From positions 27,933 through 62,029 of the forward strand of contig JACPDX010000011.1 of the NCBI GenBank assembly GCA_016183805.1: DNA of 34,097 nt, in the 5' to 3' direction. Below the pieces are notes generated by a model that was not told the DNA's origin, did not search any database, and saw only the letters and a list, made by a program, of their open reading frames with translations. Numbering within the stretch: the stretch's first letter is position 1; each line of letters starts with the position of its first letter. Shown in pieces: positions 12,215 through 28,422 of this stretch. This DNA comes from Bacteroidota bacterium (GTDB lineage: Bacteria > Bacteroidota > Bacteroidia > Flavobacteriales_E > Vicingaceae). A program made the position numbers and the translations under genes.

Positions 12215-13417
12215 TTAAACCTCTAAATCAATATTATGCAACTCGTGCCAAGGTAAACCTTGAACATTTAATTCAGCCATAAATGGATCCGGGTTAAATT
12301 CTTCTACATTAAATACTCCTGCACCTCTCCATTCGCCTTTTAAAAACATCATTGCTCCAATCATGGCAGGAACTCCTGTAGTGTATGAAACTCCTTGAGT
12401 ACCTGTTTCTTTAAATGCCACTTCGTGGGAACAGTTGTTGTAAACGTAATATGTTTTTTCTTTTCCGTCTTTTATTCCTTTAATTCTACAGCCTATAGAA
12501 GTTTCGCCTGTATAATTCTCTCCTAAATCGCCCGGATTTGGCAACACTGCTTTTAAAAATTGGATAGGAACAATTTCTTTTCCTTCGTACATGATTGGAG
12601 TAATACCAGCCATTCCAATGTTTTGAATAACTCTCAAATGTGTTAGATATTCCTGTCCAAAAGTCATCCAAAAACGAGCTCTTTTTAGGGTTGGGAAATT
12701 TTTTACCAACGATTCCAGTTCTTCGTGATACAACACATACGATTCTTTAGGTCCGATGTTTGGATAATTGATGGGTTGATGAATTTCGTGTGGTTCAGTT
12801 TCTACCCATTTACCATTTTCCCAGTATTTACCTTTTTGAGTAACCTCTCTGATGTTGATTTCCGGATTAAAATTGGTAGCAAAAGCTTTACCGTGGTCGC
12901 CTGCATTACAGTCAACAATATCTAAATACTGAATTTCATCAAAATGATGTTTAGCCGCATAAGCGGTATAAATTGCCGATACTCCGGGGTCGAAACCACA
13001 ACCTAAAATAGCGGTTAATCCTGCTTTTTTAAATCTATCTTGATAAGCCCATTGCCAACTGTATTCAAATTTTGCTTCATCTAAAGGTTCGTAATTTGCT
13101 GTATCTAAGTAATTTACACCACATTCTAAACAAGCATCCATGATGGTTAAATCTTGATAAGGTAAGGCTAAATTTACACAAATTACCGGTTTATATTTTT
13201 TGAACAATTCAACCAATTCAGGAACATGATCTGCGTTTACTTGTGCAGTTTGAATCGTTACCCCTAAATCTCTTTTGATGGATGCCGCAATAACATCGCA
13301 TTTCGATTTGGTTCTACTGGCTAATACAATTTCAGTAAAAACACCAGTATTCATTGCACACTTGTATGTTGCAACCTGTCCTACTCCTCCTGCTCCAATG
13401 ATAAGTACTTTTGACAT
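12215..13417 (-). CDS. Carboxynorspermidine/carboxyspermidine dehydrogenase (saccharopine dehydrogenase family)
   Basis: 400 aa. The N-terminal Rossmann fold begins VLIIGAGGVG (8-13 is GAGGVG), followed by LASRTKSK, which fits NADPH use. The middle has YLDTANYEP and LGCGFDPGVSAIYTAYA, typical of the Lys1/CANSDH group. It condenses putrescine or diaminopropane with aspartate semialdehyde to carboxyspermidine or carboxynorspermidine; in Bacteroidota this route makes spermidine. The decarboxylase follows on the same strand after 65 bases that contain the heptad repeat. A TAATTTCG box (13460-13453) and a hairpin lie before the ATG. Confidence 0.9.
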   Translation of the reverse strand: MSKVLIIGAGGVGQVATYKCAMNTGVFTEIVLASRTKSKCDVIAASIKRDLGVTIQTAQVNADHVPELVELFKKYKPVICVNLALPYQDLTIMDACLECGVNYLDTANYEPLDEAKFEYSWQWAYQDRFKKAGLTAILGCGFDPGVSAIYTAYAAKHHFDEIQYLDIVDCNAGDHGKAFATNFNPEINIREVTQKGKYWENGKWVETEPHEIHQPINYPNIGPKESYVLYHEELESLVKNFPTLKRARFWMTFGQEYLTHLRVIQNIGMAGITPIMYEGKEIVPIQFLKAVLPNPGDLGENYTGETSIGCRIKGIKDGKEKTYYVYNNCSHEVAFKETGTQGVSYTTGVPAMIGAMMFLKGEWRGAGVFNVEEFNPDPFMAELNVQGLPWHELHNIDLEV

Positions 13418-13474: not shown

Positions 13475-15615
<2,141 letters not shown>

Positions 15616-22102: not shown

Positions 22103-23017
22103 TTGGACAAACCCATCAACAAGTATTTGCCTGTTTCAGCCATATTGCTGTGCTGTGTAATTTGGGGAACCACCTTTGTTGTGGTTAAAGACGTTTCTAC
22201 GCTCATCGACCCATTTTTATTGGCTGCATCTCGAAACGTATTGGCTTTGGCAGCTTTAGGACTTTACCTTATTACTGCAAAAAAAACAGCTGTTTTAAAA
22301 ATGGAGAAAGCCACAAAATATGGGGCTGTCTTAGGAATATTACTTGGTGCCATTTACATTCTTCAAACTGCCGGGTTGGTTTATACCAGTTCAAACCACA
22401 GTGCTTTTATTAGTTGTTCGGCTGTAATTATGGTTCCTATTATGATGTATTTTGTGGGTTGGCAAAAATTTACGGTACAACAAGTTATAGCTGTGGTAAT
22501 AGTTAGTGTAGGATTGCTACTACTCACCTACCAACCGGGAATAGCCAATTTTAATTTTGGCGATTTTTTAACCTTTATTGCCGCAATTATTTGTGCCGTT
22601 CACTTGATGTTATCCGGGCATTTTGTTCGAAAAGTTGATTTTTTAGCCTTAATTTTTTATCAATTTTTATTTGCTGCTTTGGCATCCGGTATAGGTTTGC
22701 TGATTAAATTTTCAGTATTCGATACCGAGCCTGTTTTGTTTAAAATGGAAGCTGTTCCCAATGTTTTGTATTTGGGTTTATTGGGTACGTTGTTTTGCTA
22801 TTTTGTTACCGTTTGGGGACAAAAACACGTAAGCACCGTTTATACCGTATTAATTTTTTCGTTAGAACCTATTTTTGCTTCGTTTACCGCCTATCTGGCT
22901 TTTGACGAGTTGTTTTCTAAAAATGAAGCCTTTGGTGCTTTTTTAATTTTTTGTGGAATTTTATTTTATAGTGTTCCGAAAAGTTATTTGAAATTGGGGC
23001 TGAAGGTTAAAGATTAA
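22103..23017 (+). CDS. EamA/DMT family transporter
   Basis: 304 aa with ten hydrophobic helices in two EamA repeats (about 8-140 and 150-295). ILLCCVIWGTTFVVVKDV is the typical first helix; the second repeat has VYTVLIFSLEPIFASFTAYLAFDE, the DMT hallmark. It is an inner-membrane metabolite or drug exporter, substrate unknown. The start is TTG at 22103; no ATG is near. The last 28 codons are duplicated, with changes, at 24367-24471, so this 3' end borders a rearranged region. Confidence 0.87.
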   Translation: MDKPINKYLPVSAILLCCVIWGTTFVVVKDVSTLIDPFLLAASRNVLALAALGLYLITAKKTAVLKMEKATKYGAVLGILLGAIYILQTAGLVYTSSNHSAFISCSAVIMVPIMMYFVGWQKFTVQQVIAVVIVSVGLLLLTYQPGIANFNFGDFLTFIAAIICAVHLMLSGHFVRKVDFLALIFYQFLFAALASGIGLLIKFSVFDTEPVLFKMEAVPNVLYLGLLGTLFCYFVTVWGQKHVSTVYTVLIFSLEPIFASFTAYLAFDELFSKNEAFGAFLIFCGILFYSVPKSYLKLGLKVKD

Positions 23018-23041
23018 TTTTTGGTTATATCACCCATCCGT
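22933..23041 (+). repeat. eamA 3'-end direct repeat, copy A
   Basis: The 3' end of eamA plus about 24 bases of flank. It matches copy B at 24367-24471 with about eight substitutions over the first 92 bases and a 4-base gap near TGGTTATATCACC. The similarity ends at CATCCGT, inside the left arm of the palindrome at 23036-23053. Confidence 0.85.
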
Positions 23042-23053
23042 CAGCTGACGGAT
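23036..23053. repeat. Perfect 18-bp palindrome ATCCGTCAGCTGACGGAT
   Basis: The two 9-base arms are exact complements. It follows the eamA stop by 18 bases and is the boundary where copies A and B stop being alike. The following bases GCGGAGCGTATCGAGGAG are GC-richer than their surroundings and look like an interspersed (REP-like) element. A terminator role is possible but there is no T-run. Confidence 0.6.
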
Positions 23054-23083
23054 TGCGGAGCGTATCGAGGAGTTGATGATTAA

Positions 23084-23182
23084 ATCTACAATAGCAGAAA
23101 TTTAAAAGGCTTTATAGCCATTGGAACGAGAAAGCCAAGAATTGTTATCTACAATAGTAGAAATTTAAAAGACTGAAACCTC
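23084..23182 (-). CRISPR. Two type V-A (Cas12a)-like CRISPR repeat units, no cas genes
   Basis: On the minus strand both units end in the Cas12a hairpin: the first in transcription order (repeat about 23182-23147) ends AATTTCTACTATTGTAGAT, the second (about 23119-23084) ends AATTTCTGCTATTGTAGAT. The change turns a stem A-T pair into a G-T pair, so the TCTAC/GTAGA-type hairpin can still form. They share the 26 bases from CTTTTAAATTTCT to GTAGAT. The 3' ends are 63 bases apart, exactly 36 (repeat) + 27 (spacer), the normal geometry. The first ten bases of the 36 differ between the units, so they are degenerate or independent. No cas1, cas2, cas4 or cas12a is in the window. Confidence 0.72.
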
Positions 23183-23302
23183 GTAATGGGTAAAAACGTT
23201 TCCATAATTAAGTATTTTTCAAAATGCCAAAGAACGGGTGTTAATAATTACTGTGCCTTACTGTTAATATCTTATGTTAACTCCAGTTAGAAAAGAAGCA
23301 AG

Positions 23303-24292
23303 TTATTTCTTTTTCTTAATGGATTTTTCGAGTTGTTTCAAGGTATCGAGGTATGATTTTTCTACTTCGCTAAGGGTTTTGTTGTGGTATTTTCTTAATT
23401 CAGTTTTTGCCTTTTCTTGGGCTTGTTGATGGCTTATTTTTCCAGCATTTTGCAAAATCTCTCGCCCTGTGGAAGACAATATCAAATCGAGCTGATTGAT
23501 GTAATCTTGCATTTTCATTGGTTTTTCTTCGATAGCACTGATTTCTGCTAAATCGAAATAAGCAGACACCAAATTATTAAGCACTTTTAGTTCTTCTATT
23601 TGCAAATAATTTTTAGCAATCAATGCCTCAGTTGATGTAGGTTGTGTTCCTTTAAAATGGGTTAACCCGGCAAAAGGCTTGTCGGAATCTACCCTAAAAT
23701 AAACCACTTCGGCTGCGGTATTTCCGTGTGCTGCAAAGTGTAGTTTGTTTTGTACAATTTTAAAAAACTGAGTGCTTTCGTCTGATTTCGGGTTGTAATC
23801 TATTGCTGTAGCGTACAAATCGAGCACTTGTCGATACATCACTTTTTCGCTGCTGCGAATATCCCGAATACGGTCTAACAGTTCTTTCCAATAATTACCT
23901 CCCCCTATTTCTTTCAGGCGTTCATCGTTCATCGTAAAACCTTTAATCAGGTATTCTTTTAAACGTTGGGTTGCCCAAATACGGAATTGTGTAGCAATAC
24001 TTGATTTGATGCGGTAACCAAGAGAAATAATCATATCCAGATTGTAATACTCAATTTCTCGCTCCACATTTCTGCTTCCTTCTTTTTGAACTGTTCGGAA
24101 ATTCCGAACAGTTGCTTCTTTTGTTAATTCTCCTTCTTCAAAAATGTGTTTTATATGCTCACTTACATTGGCTTTGCTGCTTTGATACAATTCCACCAAT
24201 TGTGCTTGTGAAAGCCAAACGGTTTCATTCTCCAATTGAACTTCAATTTGAATGTTATTGTCTTTGCCTTGATAAATTATTACTTCACTCAT
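23303..24292 (-). CDS. RhuM family protein
   Basis: 330 aa from the ATG at 24292 (MSEVIIYQGKDNNIQIEVQLENETVWLSQAQ); the frame is open 12 codons further without family similarity. The N-terminal ETVWLSQAQLVELYQSS..NVSEHIKHIFEEGEL is the RhuM DNA-binding-like region; YYNLDMIISLGYRIKSSIATQFRIWATQRLKEYLIKGFTMND is diagnostic. The C-terminal half carries the RhuM GN.AAEVVYFRVDSDKPFAGLTHFKG segment. Named a virulence protein after Salmonella, it is mostly found within type I restriction-modification loci and genomic islands; its biochemical role is unclear. A cut-off reading frame ends 5 bases before its ATG. Confidence 0.9.
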   Translation of the reverse strand: MSEVIIYQGKDNNIQIEVQLENETVWLSQAQLVELYQSSKANVSEHIKHIFEEGELTKEATVRNFRTVQKEGSRNVEREIEYYNLDMIISLGYRIKSSIATQFRIWATQRLKEYLIKGFTMNDERLKEIGGGNYWKELLDRIRDIRSSEKVMYRQVLDLYATAIDYNPKSDESTQFFKIVQNKLHFAAHGNTAAEVVYFRVDSDKPFAGLTHFKGTQPTSTEALIAKNYLQIEELKVLNNLVSAYFDLAEISAIEEKPMKMQDYINQLDLILSSTGREILQNAGKISHQQAQEKAKTELRKYHNKTLSEVEKSYLDTLKQLEKSIKKKK

Positions 24293-24297
24293 TCTCC

Positions 24298-24366
24298 TTA
24301 GTGTTTTGGTTGCACAAATTGCAGCCATTCTTTATTGCTGGTGGCTAATTTATTTTTTTTCAAATC
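24298..24366 (-). pseudogene. C-terminal tail of a lost gene upstream of rhuM
   Basis: The minus-strand frame reads KKNKLATSNKEWLQFVQPKH then TAA at 24300-24298, five bases before the rhuM ATG, the spacing of an operon. Upstream it runs straight into the eamA copy B at 24367, so the rest of the gene is missing. Family not identified. By the usual company of rhuM it could be a restriction-modification subunit, but this is inference. Confidence 0.45.
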
Positions 24367-24471
24367 TGGTGCTTTTTTAATTTTTTGTGGCATTTTATTT
24401 TATAGTGTTCCGAAAAGTTATTTAAAGTTGAGGTTGAAGTTTAAAACTTAATTTTTGGTTTATCCATCCGT
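24367..24471 (+). repeat. eamA 3'-end direct repeat, copy B (gene fragment)
   Basis: It encodes in frame GAFLIFCGILFYSVPKSYLK, then LRLKFKT and a stop at 24447-24449, matching the EamA C-terminus with mostly silent or mild changes. It is thus a diverged homologue, not a recent copy. It lies between two truncated minus-strand frames. Confidence 0.82.
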
Positions 24472-24519
24472 TTGGGTTTCTTCTAATAATAACTTGGTAT
24501 GTAATTCTGTTAACTTCAT
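24460..24519 (-). pseudogene. N-terminal head of a truncated gene
   Basis: ATG at 24519 opens MKLTELHTKLLLEETQ and then enters copy B, where it stops after three more codons. It begins 31 bases after the stop of the 24551-25579 gene on the same strand, so it looks like the next gene of that operon. Head and tail (24298-24366) might belong to one gene split and shortened by the rearrangement; the family is unknown. Confidence 0.4.
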
Positions 24520-24550
24520 TTTAAAAAACTAAAAGTCTTCGCACATTTCT

Positions 24551-25579
24551 TTATAATTTCTGAGCAATGCTTAATAAATCCATATTTTGCTTAGGTATTA
24601 GATATTTTGAAGCAGAATAATTCGGTATTTTTAAATAACCAACAGCACTTCCGTTCAAAGCAAAAACTTCATCTTTAATTTGAGCTAAACAATATGCTCC
24701 ATTATTGTAATTTATAACTTCAATCGAATCAATTAAAAAAGGCCAATTTGGATAATCGGACGAGCAAATAATTTTTGTCTTTGAATACGTTTTGATATTG
24801 ATAAATTGCAAATCAGTTTTATTTAAAGGGAGATAATCCTTTTGAGTGTCTATTTTTGGTGCTAAATATTTTAGTTTTCCTAAATCTTCATCCCTCATTA
24901 GAATAAATCCTCCAAAATCACCGTAATGTTTTTTCCCTTCATTACCTAAACCATGTGTAAAAAATCTGCTTATTGCTCTAACTCCTTTTTCCACCGTTAT
25001 AATTATAGATTTTAAAATATAACGTTCCTCTTCATCATAAGTCATTGTTGTAACATCAACATCTTTTGAATAGGAATAAATTAAGGTCTTAAATCTTATA
25101 AATGAGTTATTTTCTTGTTTTTCCTTTTTTACAATAGTATCAATGTAATAATAACGTTGTTGTTTTGAGAAATCAGTAATTATATCGAGAAATTCTCTGA
25201 AGCGATTATCCTTTTTGATAAACACTAAATCCTCTATAACCATTGGGATTTCATTCATCAATTGAACCGTTTCAGCATACAGAATTAGTTCATCAATCAT
25301 TTTATTAATTCCATGTCCATTATCAAACTGAAAAAAATAATTTTTTTTCTTTTCAATTATTGGATAATTACCAGTAGTGTGCTTTTCTTTTAATAGCAGC
25401 AAAATTTTAGCAAGTCTTTCAAAACCTGACGATAATAACTGCAAAGGGACATGGTTACTTAAAATGGCTGATTTTTGATTATTGAGCATTCTTATTCCTT
25501 CTTTAATAAAATTAAATGAGGCTTCAATTTCTTCGCCAATCGCATCGACTTTCTCTATTTCTAATGTGTTATTTTCCAT
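24551..25579 (-). CDS. Unknown protein, HEPN-like N-terminal region
   Basis: 342 aa from the ATG at 25579 (a GTG one codon earlier is possible). I do not recognise the full family. Residues about 25-105 are helical, with LLSSGFERLAKILLLLKE and FDNGHGINKMIDELI, a pattern like HEPN domains (E/R-x2-K helix, then GH). The second half is mixed, with a beta-rich C-terminus (IEVINYNNGAYCLAQIKDEVFALNGSAVGYL). The ATG overlaps the stop of a short upstream frame as TGATG, so it is translationally coupled to a restriction-methyltransferase-like remnant. The setting suggests an accessory defence gene. No signal peptide or membrane segment. Confidence 0.6.
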   Translation of the reverse strand: MENNTLEIEKVDAIGEEIEASFNFIKEGIRMLNNQKSAILSNHVPLQLLSSGFERLAKILLLLKEKHTTGNYPIIEKKKNYFFQFDNGHGINKMIDELILYAETVQLMNEIPMVIEDLVFIKKDNRFREFLDIITDFSKQQRYYYIDTIVKKEKQENNSFIRFKTLIYSYSKDVDVTTMTYDEEERYILKSIIITVEKGVRAISRFFTHGLGNEGKKHYGDFGGFILMRDEDLGKLKYLAPKIDTQKDYLPLNKTDLQFINIKTYSKTKIICSSDYPNWPFLIDSIEVINYNNGAYCLAQIKDEVFALNGSAVGYLKIPNYSASKYLIPKQNMDLLSIAQKL

Positions 25580-25674
25580 CACTCTCCCTCCACAATTTTA
25601 ATTTCCTCCTCACTTAACCCATAAATCTCATAAACCATTTGGTTTTTTAGTTTTGATTTTTGAAATAATGCCAT
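25579..25674 (-). pseudogene. 31-codon remnant resembling a restriction-modification methyltransferase C-terminus
   Basis: From the ATG at 25674 the frame reads MALFQKSKLKNQ then MVYEIYGLSEEEIKIVEGE and TGA (25581-25579). VYE(L/I)YGL(S/T)EEEIKIVEG is, as I recall, the standard ending of Eco57I/PglX-like N6-adenine methyltransferases and type IIG enzymes. Everything upstream of this end is gone: position 25675 onward is the AT-rich intergenic region before the LRR gene. The short frame may still be translated and pass ribosomes to the gene at 25579. Confidence 0.6.
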
Positions 25675-25794
25675 TTATAAATTTCTGTTTAAGAACTTTA
25701 AAATTAACATTTTTTAATACATAAATTTTCCACCTTTAAACAATAACATTTTTTAGCTTACGTTAATAACAACAAACAACGTAATTCATTGAAA

Positions 25795-28422
25795 ATGAAT
25801 AAAAAAACCATCTCTATTCTTTGTGTAACTGCCTTGTACACAACACTTTTTTATCAACAACACGTCGGCATCAACTTTTTACTTTTTACCATAGCAGCCA
25901 TTGCTTTTTTTTATTTTCAAGATAAAGAAGCTTTTAAAAGTAAGTCTGTATTGTTGTTAAGTGGGGCAGCCGTTTTTAGTGCTTCATTTGCAGCCGTGCA
26001 TGGCTCGTATTTATCCATGTGGGCAACCATTGTCAGTATGTTGGTTTTACCGGGTGTTATCATCAACCGTCGGTCGGCATTGTTAATCGATTTTTTTTCC
26101 TCGCTTTATACTACGTCGGTTTCTAGTGTGTACCTGTTTATCGATGCCATTGAGGCTCGAAAAAATGAAAAAGGAAAAGGCTTTTTGAGTTTACTCAAAT
26201 ACATTGTACCTACCGTATTTGTTATCGCTTTCTTTTTTATTTACCGTGCCATGAACCCTTTGTTTGAGAAATTTACTCAAGACATTGCAGAAATTATCAG
26301 TTTGGAGTTTGTGTTTTTTACCCTTGGTGGATTTCTTTTGGTGTACAGTTTTTACAAACAAAAACGAATTAAAGAATTAGACACTTGGGAAAACAATTGG
26401 TTGATTAACATTGACCAAGAAAAATCAATTTTTCCAAAATGGAACGAGTCGTTGAGTTTTATCATCCTCTTTGTTGTTTTAAACCTGATGTTGGTTGCCG
26501 TTAATTCAATGGACATTAACTACCTCTACATTGGCAACGGTTTGCCCGAAGGAATAGACCACAAACAATTTGTACATAAAGGTGTGGGTATGCTCATTTT
26601 ATCTATTGTTTTAGGAATTTCTATTCTGTTGTTCTTTTTTAGAGGTTCGCTAAATTTTACCAAAAATAAAAATGTAGTAAAAGCCCTTGCCTTTTTATGG
26701 GTAGTGCAAAATGTGTTTATGGTTTTTTCTACTGCCATCAGAAATACCATGTATGTTGATGCTTCGTTATTAACCTACAAACGGATAGGCGTTTATTTTT
26801 GGTTGTTTTTTGCCATCATTGGCTTAATTACCCTGTTTATTAAATTACAACGTAACAAAACAGTTTGGTTTTTAGCACGACACAATGTTAGTGCGTTGTT
26901 TGTAGTGTTATTACTTAGTTCTGCCGTAGATTGGGATGATTTAATTTCTTCTTTTAACTTAAACCGGGCTCACCAAATGAAAGAAATTTCTGCATTAGAT
27001 AAAAACTACATGCTAAGCCTCTCCGAAGGAAATATTGAAGGATTGTTTGCTATTAAAAAATTGTCTGGCTTTGAAGTCGATTCGGTATATTCCTATCAAG
27101 ACAAGTATTTATCCAACACCAATTGGTTAGATTGTAAGGTGTATAATTTTTTATTGGACGATGCTGAAGGAGATTGGAGGTCGTATTCAGTTCGTAGAAA
27201 TCGAGTACGAAACGAAATAAAACATCTCCACGACAATGGCTTGATTACAAAATTAGAATTACAAAATCGTTATTTAAAATCCTTAAGTCCCATTTACTCT
27301 TTAAACAAGTTGGAGGAACTCAATTTAAACAGCAATCACTTTAACACCAAAGAAAAGTTGGCAGAAATCAATCATTTACAACAATTAAAAAAACTGTATT
27401 TAAACAATAACTCTATTACCGATTTATCGGCATTAAAAGGCAGTATAAATTTAACCCATTTGTCGCTGGAAATTAATGAGATAGACAACTTAAACTTTCT
27501 AAAAAATTACCCCAATCTCGACTCATTAGAACTAAGTGGCAACAGTTTAATAACACTATCTTCACTTCCTGCTTTGCCCAACCTAACCAACCTTCGGTTA
27601 GATAATAATCCTTTGAATGATATCAGCACCTTGAATAAACTGCCCCGATTAACGCATTTATCCTTAAATACTATTGTAGAAAATTGTGGTAAATTTCCCG
27701 AATTGGCAAACTTAGAAAACTTAAGTGTTAGTGGTTCGCCAAATTTAGTGATGTATGGGTTAAATATCACCGCTTCTTTTCCTTCACTTACCTATTTAGA
27801 GATATCTAATAATGAGTTGACAGGACTTTACCCACTTCTAAAACCGGAAACTGGATTATCAAAAGCACCTGAATTAAAAACACTTGTAATAAGTTCGAAC
27901 AAACTTGGAAATCTTTATGGAATTGAACAATTCGAACAATTGGAGCATTTTGACGCACGTAATAATTCCATCTACAATTTATCGGGTTTAGAAAAACTCA
28001 CCAAACTTCAACGATTGTATTTAAGCAATAATCAACTTAATAACCTTTCACCTTTGGCAGGAATGGTTCATTTAAAAGAACTTGACCTTGGGTACAACTC
28101 AAGTATTCAGGATTTTAATGTATTATCAAACTTTAATCAATTGATATTTTTAGATTTATCAGGAACAGTTTTAAAGGATTTACAACATATTGAAGCAAAA
28201 AAATCGCTTAAAACGTTGAACTTAACAGGTTGTAGAATAAACAATTGGGAATCATTAAACTCCTTTAATCTCTTAGAGAATTTATCGGTTTCTTATTTGA
28301 AAAAAGAAGACGTTGCTTTATTTAAAAAGTTGACCAACCTAAAATTTCTTCGTATTACCAATACCGAAGAAGAAGTAGTACTATTAATGAAAGAGGCATT
28401 GAAAGACTTAGAAATATACTAA
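25795..28422 (+). CDS. DUF4173-like membrane protein fused to leucine-rich repeats
   Basis: 875 aa from the ATG at 25795 (a TTG two codons earlier is unlikely). Residues about 1-415 hold roughly eleven hydrophobic segments of a DUF4153/DUF4173 type protein: VLLLSGAAVFSASFAAVHGS, IVPTVFVIAFFFIYRAMNPLFEKF, NYLYIGNGLPEG, and FMVFSTAIRNTMYVDASLLTYKRIGVYFWL. After a linker, residues about 490-860 form a run of about 16 leucine-rich repeats of the internalin/SDS22 type (LKKLYLNNNSITDLSALKG, LQRLYLSNNQLNNLSPLAG). The repeats follow the last membrane helix, so their side of the membrane is set by its orientation. The role is unknown, perhaps protein binding. Confidence 0.82.
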   Translation: MNKKTISILCVTALYTTLFYQQHVGINFLLFTIAAIAFFYFQDKEAFKSKSVLLLSGAAVFSASFAAVHGSYLSMWATIVSMLVLPGVIINRRSALLIDFFSSLYTTSVSSVYLFIDAIEARKNEKGKGFLSLLKYIVPTVFVIAFFFIYRAMNPLFEKFTQDIAEIISLEFVFFTLGGFLLVYSFYKQKRIKELDTWENNWLINIDQEKSIFPKWNESLSFIILFVVLNLMLVAVNSMDINYLYIGNGLPEGIDHKQFVHKGVGMLILSIVLGISILLFFFRGSLNFTKNKNVVKALAFLWVVQNVFMVFSTAIRNTMYVDASLLTYKRIGVYFWLFFAIIGLITLFIKLQRNKTVWFLARHNVSALFVVLLLSSAVDWDDLISSFNLNRAHQMKEISALDKNYMLSLSEGNIEGLFAIKKLSGFEVDSVYSYQDKYLSNTNWLDCKVYNFLLDDAEGDWRSYSVRRNRVRNEIKHLHDNGLITKLELQNRYLKSLSPIYSLNKLEELNLNSNHFNTKEKLAEINHLQQLKKLYLNNNSITDLSALKGSINLTHLSLEINEIDNLNFLKNYPNLDSLELSGNSLITLSSLPALPNLTNLRLDNNPLNDISTLNKLPRLTHLSLNTIVENCGKFPELANLENLSVSGSPNLVMYGLNITASFPSLTYLEISNNELTGLYPLLKPETGLSKAPELKTLVISSNKLGNLYGIEQFEQLEHFDARNNSIYNLSGLEKLTKLQRLYLSNNQLNNLSPLAGMVHLKELDLGYNSSIQDFNVLSNFNQLIFLDLSGTVLKDLQHIEAKKSLKTLNLTGCRINNWESLNSFNLLENLSVSYLKKEDVALFKKLTNLKFLRITNTEEEVVLLMKEALKDLEIY

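Follow-up and report, generated by a model that had tools for sequence, protein, structure and literature searches.

The window analysed here, a stretch of 34,097 nucleotides from a Bacteroidota bacterium of the Vicingaceae (contig JACPDX010000011.1), carries on its minus strand a compact remnant made up of 29 codons of cas12a, an intact rhuM gene, the first eight codons of cas4, two CRISPR repeats and one spacer. The repeats contain Cas12a-type hairpins at 23084-23102 and 23147-23165, spaced 63 bases apart. When the hairpin pattern was searched with up to three mismatches, two matches were found in the window, compared with a mean of 0.15 over 100 shuffles, none of which reached two. The downstream, terminal repeat (unit 2, 23084-23119) is a full 36-base repeat with the 3' hairpin and is identical at 34 of 36 bases to the V-A array repeat shared by two relatives, G025 and G022, from which the repeat of the same-genus genome G001 differs by one base. 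The sole remaining spacer, 27 bases long (23120-23146), separates it from unit 1 (23147-23180), in which the 3' 25 bases are exact and the 5' part is altered. Arrays of relatives with the same repeat contain spacers of mostly 26-28 bases, the commonest length being 27 in G001 and G025 and 28 among the few spacers of G022. The original prediction, made from the letters of the DNA, described two minus-strand units with differing 5' parts and read the distance as 36 + 27; the positions, the shuffles and the spacer lengths of the relatives bear out this description.

Searching the bacterium's own genome for the repeat core, with two positions left free, showed that the two units are the sole copies with fewer than two mismatches; the original prediction had asked for such a genome search. 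Six more places match the core at two mismatches and look like background, because the pattern gave 8 matches in total against 5 for a reversed control. Beyond the array end lies an 18-base palindrome (23036-23053); its core of 14 bases was counted 12 times across the genome, marking it as a dispersed palindromic element outside the CRISPR unit. The sequence just past the terminal repeat agrees with that past the last repeat of contig C209 of G025 in 23 of 27 positions, more than in any other of the several hundred placements compared, and given the adjacent palindrome this match may likewise reflect a dispersed element.

On the other side of the repeats, unit 1 is joined to the first eight codons of cas4 (METFLPIT; 23182-23205, minus strand), which are cut at that point and were recognized by alignment with G025, G022, G001 and G035; the METFLPIT start is common to the stub and to the cas4 genes of G025, G022 and G001. 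A conserved region upstream of cas4 (23206-23270, minus strand) leads to rhuM (23303-24292, minus strand), which encodes 329 residues from the start MSEV, or 341 if the upstream ATG at 24328 is used, and which matches PF13310 with an E value of 3e-104 and fits the PADLOC candidate defence family PDC-S05. The remnant ends in a 3' stub of cas12a, 29 codons plus the stop (24298-24387, minus strand), corresponding to residues 1253-1281 of the 1282-residue Cas12a of G025 with 83% amino-acid identity (E 1e-8). The whole is bracketed by a 94-base direct repeat, the first copy of which is the 3' end of an eamA gene (22933-23026, plus strand; gene at 22103-23017, EamA by Pfam) and the second of which (24367-24460, plus strand), 91% identical to the first, is joined to the cas12a stub. 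The window also encodes a 343-residue protein beside the remnant (24551-25582, minus strand) with no match in Pfam, NCBIfam or PADLOC and, farther on, an 877-residue protein (25789-28422, plus strand) that combines a DUF4153 part with leucine-rich repeats.

Comparison with G025 provided the frame in which these fragments can be read. In that relative the genes follow the ancestral-type order cas12a, rhuM, cas4, cas1, cas2 and array, with the NCBIfam models TIGR04328 and TIGR04329 identifying the type V forms of cas4 and cas1 and TIGR01573 identifying cas2. The minus strand of the window is 89% identical to G025 over 1,210 aligned bases, and the match begins within the 3' end of cas12a, runs through rhuM and ends at codon 8 of cas4; the cas12a stub, the intergenic region and the cas4 start could be aligned base by base. 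Both stubs keep the order and strand seen in G025, whereas cas1 and cas2 have vanished from the locus entirely. A DNA search with positions 23018-24480 in 37 genomes further placed pieces of rhuM and of the region adjoining the repeats inside the V-A loci of G022 and G001. Thus, the statement of the original prediction that there are no cas genes holds for whole genes, whereas the 3' end of cas12a and the start of cas4 had been overlooked, and it is these stubs, lying beside the repeats in the right order and orientation, that favour the first of its two readings, namely the last trace of a lost array. Taken together, what the window carries is almost certainly a wrecked CRISPR-Cas locus of type V-A (Cas12a).

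The genome-wide check for cas12a proposed in the original prediction gave no match in the genome, which is 95.92% complete, and no Cas1 was detected there by a search whose control was positive in 9 of 14 genomes. These results and the joints described below are given as assembled, in 109 contigs, where some risk of misjoining remains. It is conceivable that the two repeats form a living minimal array whose Cas12a is missing from the assembly alone or arrives by transfer, considering that completeness falls short of 100% and that Cas12a is present in the same-genus G001 and in three more members of the family (G022, G025 and G035). Such an array is nevertheless highly unlikely, since a cas12a stub sits in the place of the gene, the leader is gone, and promoter-like sites are not above chance, with 4 in the interval 22900-24600 against a shuffle mean of 5.3. 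One of these sites, a 10/12 match on the minus strand at 24513-24486, lies upstream of rhuM. Terminator-like sites in the same interval number 3 compared with 1.3, and the stretch from rhuM to the repeats contains none of the three. Most likely the two repeats now do nothing, and rhuM alone remains an intact gene.

The deletions that would lead from a complete V-A locus to the present remnant may be reconstructed from the joints. Starting from the order cas12a, rhuM, cas4, cas1, cas2, leader and array as in G025, one deletion would have removed about 3.8 kb of cas12a (3,760 bases as measured on G025) and fused the 29 codons remaining of it with the 3' end of an eamA copy. A stretch of 16 bases (24368-24383) is common to the eamA 3' end and to G025 cas12a and is the likely deletion joint; these shared bases and the second eamA 3' end would be explained by a short-direct-repeat deletion running from cas12a into a former second eamA. 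The duplication of the eamA end is accounted for only by assuming that second ancestral gene. A relative sharing this chromosomal site did not turn up; G002 has an eamA with 60% identity, and 10 other proteins of the window that were compared all lack a match in the 15 kb surrounding that gene. Another deletion, of about 2 kb, would have extended from codon 8 of cas4 to near the end of the leader and taken cas1, cas2 and the leader with it (in G025, 1,963 bases separate the point of the cas4 cut from the first repeat), and the array would have shrunk to two repeats and one spacer. The number of these events and their order are inferred.

At the second joint, 10 bases separate the cas4 cut from the preserved portion of unit 1, and they match cas4 and the internal repeat poorly. 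An alignment of the 5' part of unit 1 with the end of the relatives' leader followed by their first repeat, which needs a 2-base gap, was equalled by 0.05% of 2,000 shuffles, compared with 9.3% for an internal repeat and 90.5% for cas4; the stretch aligned was chosen to include the last two bases of the leader, and the result is accordingly modest evidence. Unit 1 (23147-23180) is thus best read as a putative leader-proximal repeat that has decayed.

Both hairpins are predicted to fold as V-A repeats do, with folding z-scores of -1.0 for unit 1, -2.9 for unit 2 and -1.9 for the entire 99 bases. The stem of the terminal repeat carries a single A-to-G change, and the original prediction took the preserved pairing as a sign of selection on RNA structure. 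This suggestion was not sustained, because it rests on one transition in one unit, which cannot show selection, and because the terminal repeat of G022 is likewise degenerate. Degeneracy of the terminal repeat does not amount to a rule, as the last repeats of G001 and of G025 contig C209 are intact.

The second reading offered by the original prediction was a small RNA exploiting or blocking a Cas12a whose gene lies elsewhere. In its inhibitory form it corresponds to the RNA anti-CRISPRs (Racrs), solitary repeat units on mobile elements that occupy the Cas12a of the host. V-A Racrs exist, and the available text of PMC10651486 reports three that inhibit a V-A system; the hairpins of the window can fold, and a hairpin-core match in Methanosarcina virus MetMV suggests that such cores occur in viruses. 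The same source, in the part available, takes as the mark of a Racr a repeat unit without other repeats, even partial ones, nearby, whereas here a second unit stands 63 bases away, stubs of cas4 and cas12a lie alongside, and the remnant has no gene other than rhuM. With regard to carriage by mobile elements, IMG/VR contains no exact copy of the 25 bases of the repeat core, and the 99-base unit matched 46 plasmid records (best E value among the matches listed, 3) and 25 phage records without any covering 80% of its length. The best phage record was MetMV (MK170447.1, about 14855-14877; E 0.02), the one virus with a short match, unannotated and composed of two joined pieces, which may represent a repeat unit carried by this archaeal virus. 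Past mobility is not disproved by these searches, and yet a Racr origin of the two units is exceedingly improbable.

Searches for a target of the spacer, as called for by the original prediction, revealed none. Exact matching of 20 bases in IMG/VR gave 0 matches, and the 27-base spacer, with up to three mismatches allowed, retrieved only itself from 395 genomes of the class. A 31-base spacer query run with blastn against 50,697 phage records hit 25 of them, 3 with a coverage of at least 80%, at a best E value of 0.8, which is chance level. Elsewhere in the window the spacer has a seed match of 8 bases preceded by TTTG, at 13203 (13 of 27 bases overall), and one such match in 34 kb is roughly what chance would be expected to give, by an estimate made without a shuffle control. 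Outside the unit, no seed exceeded 8 bases in the scans of the window, of the rhuM start region and of the cas12a upstream regions of four relatives, a length that by the same kind of estimate is of chance size.

This seed bears on a further explanation, in which the two repeats and the spacer are a retained mini-array whose crRNA, together with Cas12a, represses rhuM or cas12a in the manner of CreTA, CrePA or CreR. A guide-length spacer between two repeats beside an intact candidate defence gene is what such a unit would look like, and guides of this kind are known for type V-A (CreR, according to the available text of PMC12737573). On the other hand, searches of the genome turned up no Cas12a, and the partial match between guide and toxin promoter that characterizes CreTA and CrePA was not seen, the longest seed in the rhuM start region (24250-24700, within which the real promoter is not mapped) being 5 bases. 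For repression of cas12a, whose own promoter is gone from the window, the scan was limited to the regions of up to 400 bases before cas12a in four relatives; seeds there reach 8 bases at most, the 8-base one is without a T-rich PAM, and the only seed with such a PAM (TTTT) measures 6 bases and derives from a pseudo-spacer after the last repeat. Regulation by a mini-array is therefore extremely unlikely, and the whole reading as an RNA acting with or on a Cas12a encoded elsewhere found no support in the genome, in IMG/VR, in the spacer searches or in the seeds near rhuM. The orphan Cas12a-type units of the window are best regarded as a deletion scar, most likely neither a decoy nor a regulatory RNA.

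RhuM was proposed as a toxin domain in defence islands in an analysis of 2013 (PMC3710099, available text). Between the window and G025 the gene shows a dN of 0.027 and a dS of 0.42 (NG86, 327 codons, with the stop and gapped codons dropped). With G038 as outgroup and the G025 stop kept, 6 nonsynonymous and 26 synonymous changes were assigned to the window branch and 12 and 20 to the G025 branch, with 21 changes unpolarised; a Flavobacterium outgroup gave 7/26 and 10/18 (24 unpolarised), and the short G022 piece of 93 codons gave 4/10 and 1/3 (1 unpolarised). Accordingly, rhuM was under purifying selection for most of the divergence, of which the period after the loss of cas12a is not separable. 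In the window rhuM is intact without Cas12a, and in G025, beside an intact cas12a, a stop and an indel of 1 base disrupt it, the opposite of what addiction would predict; the gene thus bears little resemblance to an addiction module that depends on Cas12a. Nor can RhuM be considered a general partner of V-A systems: RhuM occurs in 109 of the 395 genomes of the class, and among the best 80 RhuM loci of those listed only one, that of G025 itself, has V-A genes. A literature search combining RhuM, CRISPR and Cas12a returned only unrelated papers.

The position of rhuM was compared across the window and nine V-A loci (G025, G022, G001, G035, G374, G355, G074, G302 and G230). Ten genomes passed the family cut-off; of these, G191, with a contig that breaks off right behind cas12a, was set aside. 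In the slot between cas12a and cas4, both the window and G025 have rhuM, G022 has a 5' piece of that gene, and G001 has an IS200 transposase. In G035 it is occupied by Cas12a3, which matches PDB 9hlx (Ba1Cas12a3) over its full length, is called plain Cas12a by the PADLOC models and has no NCBIfam match; cas12a and cas12a3 stand there in tandem (locus L063, 316-7672). In G074 (L164) the slot contains a Cas12a3 relative with 55% identity, followed by a 315-residue frame. Cas12a3 has been described in PMC12851939, the available main text of which is without RhuM. In G374, G355, G302 and G230, cas12a and cas4 are less than 60 bases apart, and in G302 two RhuM matches lie upstream of cas12a, at a distance of about 4 to 6 kb. 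With cas12a3 in two relatives and three loci, the window among them, carrying rhuM whole or in part, the gap could be taken in this lineage as an accessory slot for additional anti-phage effectors and RhuM as a stand-alone defence protein kept by selection after the loss of CRISPR; this combined proposal is doubtful. What is mildly new is that rhuM, a candidate defence gene, occupies the cas12a-cas4 slot and stays intact without Cas12a, and the alternation of rhuM, cas12a3 or a transposase beside cas12a across relatives offers a small lead on V-A accessory defence genes.

Exchange within these loci is also apparent between G022 (L059) and G025 (L062), whose Cas4 and Cas1 are 93% and 95% identical and whose Cas12a proteins share only 31% identity; the effector seems to have been exchanged and the adaptation genes to have stayed, with the rhuM 5' piece retained in G022 beside the differing cas12a.

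In practice, the results suggest looking for cas gene stubs at the edges of a unit when a remnant is to be told from a functional unit. Literature searches on CRISPR remnants gave nothing useful among the matches listed. Judged against the available text of PMC10651486, the window resembles the solitary units of Racrs in its CRISPR-like hairpins without whole cas genes nearby and differs from them in having two repeats with a spacer and gene stubs. With CreTA, CreR and CrePA, as presented in the available text of PMC12737573, it has in common a short unit of repeats and spacer close to a gene that may encode a toxin, whereas no Cas effector was found in its genome and its guide has no match in the rhuM start region. 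G374 (L162) offers a parallel for the kind of loss proposed here and is alike in that its cas4 match ends after 57 codons with the array directly next and in that no cas1 or cas2 match appears in the 13 kb read, and unlike in its full-length cas12a, its 17 repeats and the lack of a rhuM match; judged from that 13 kb, it may be a V-A system whose effector is complete and whose locus is without adaptation genes. The V-A locus of G025 agrees with the window in the order of the surviving genes, in 89% DNA identity over 1.2 kb and in the repeat; in contrast, it retains complete cas12a, cas4, cas1 and cas2 genes and 13 repeats on that contig, and its rhuM is broken where that of the window is intact. 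Set beside these systems, the decayed V-A locus of the window is a new example of an ordinary fate.
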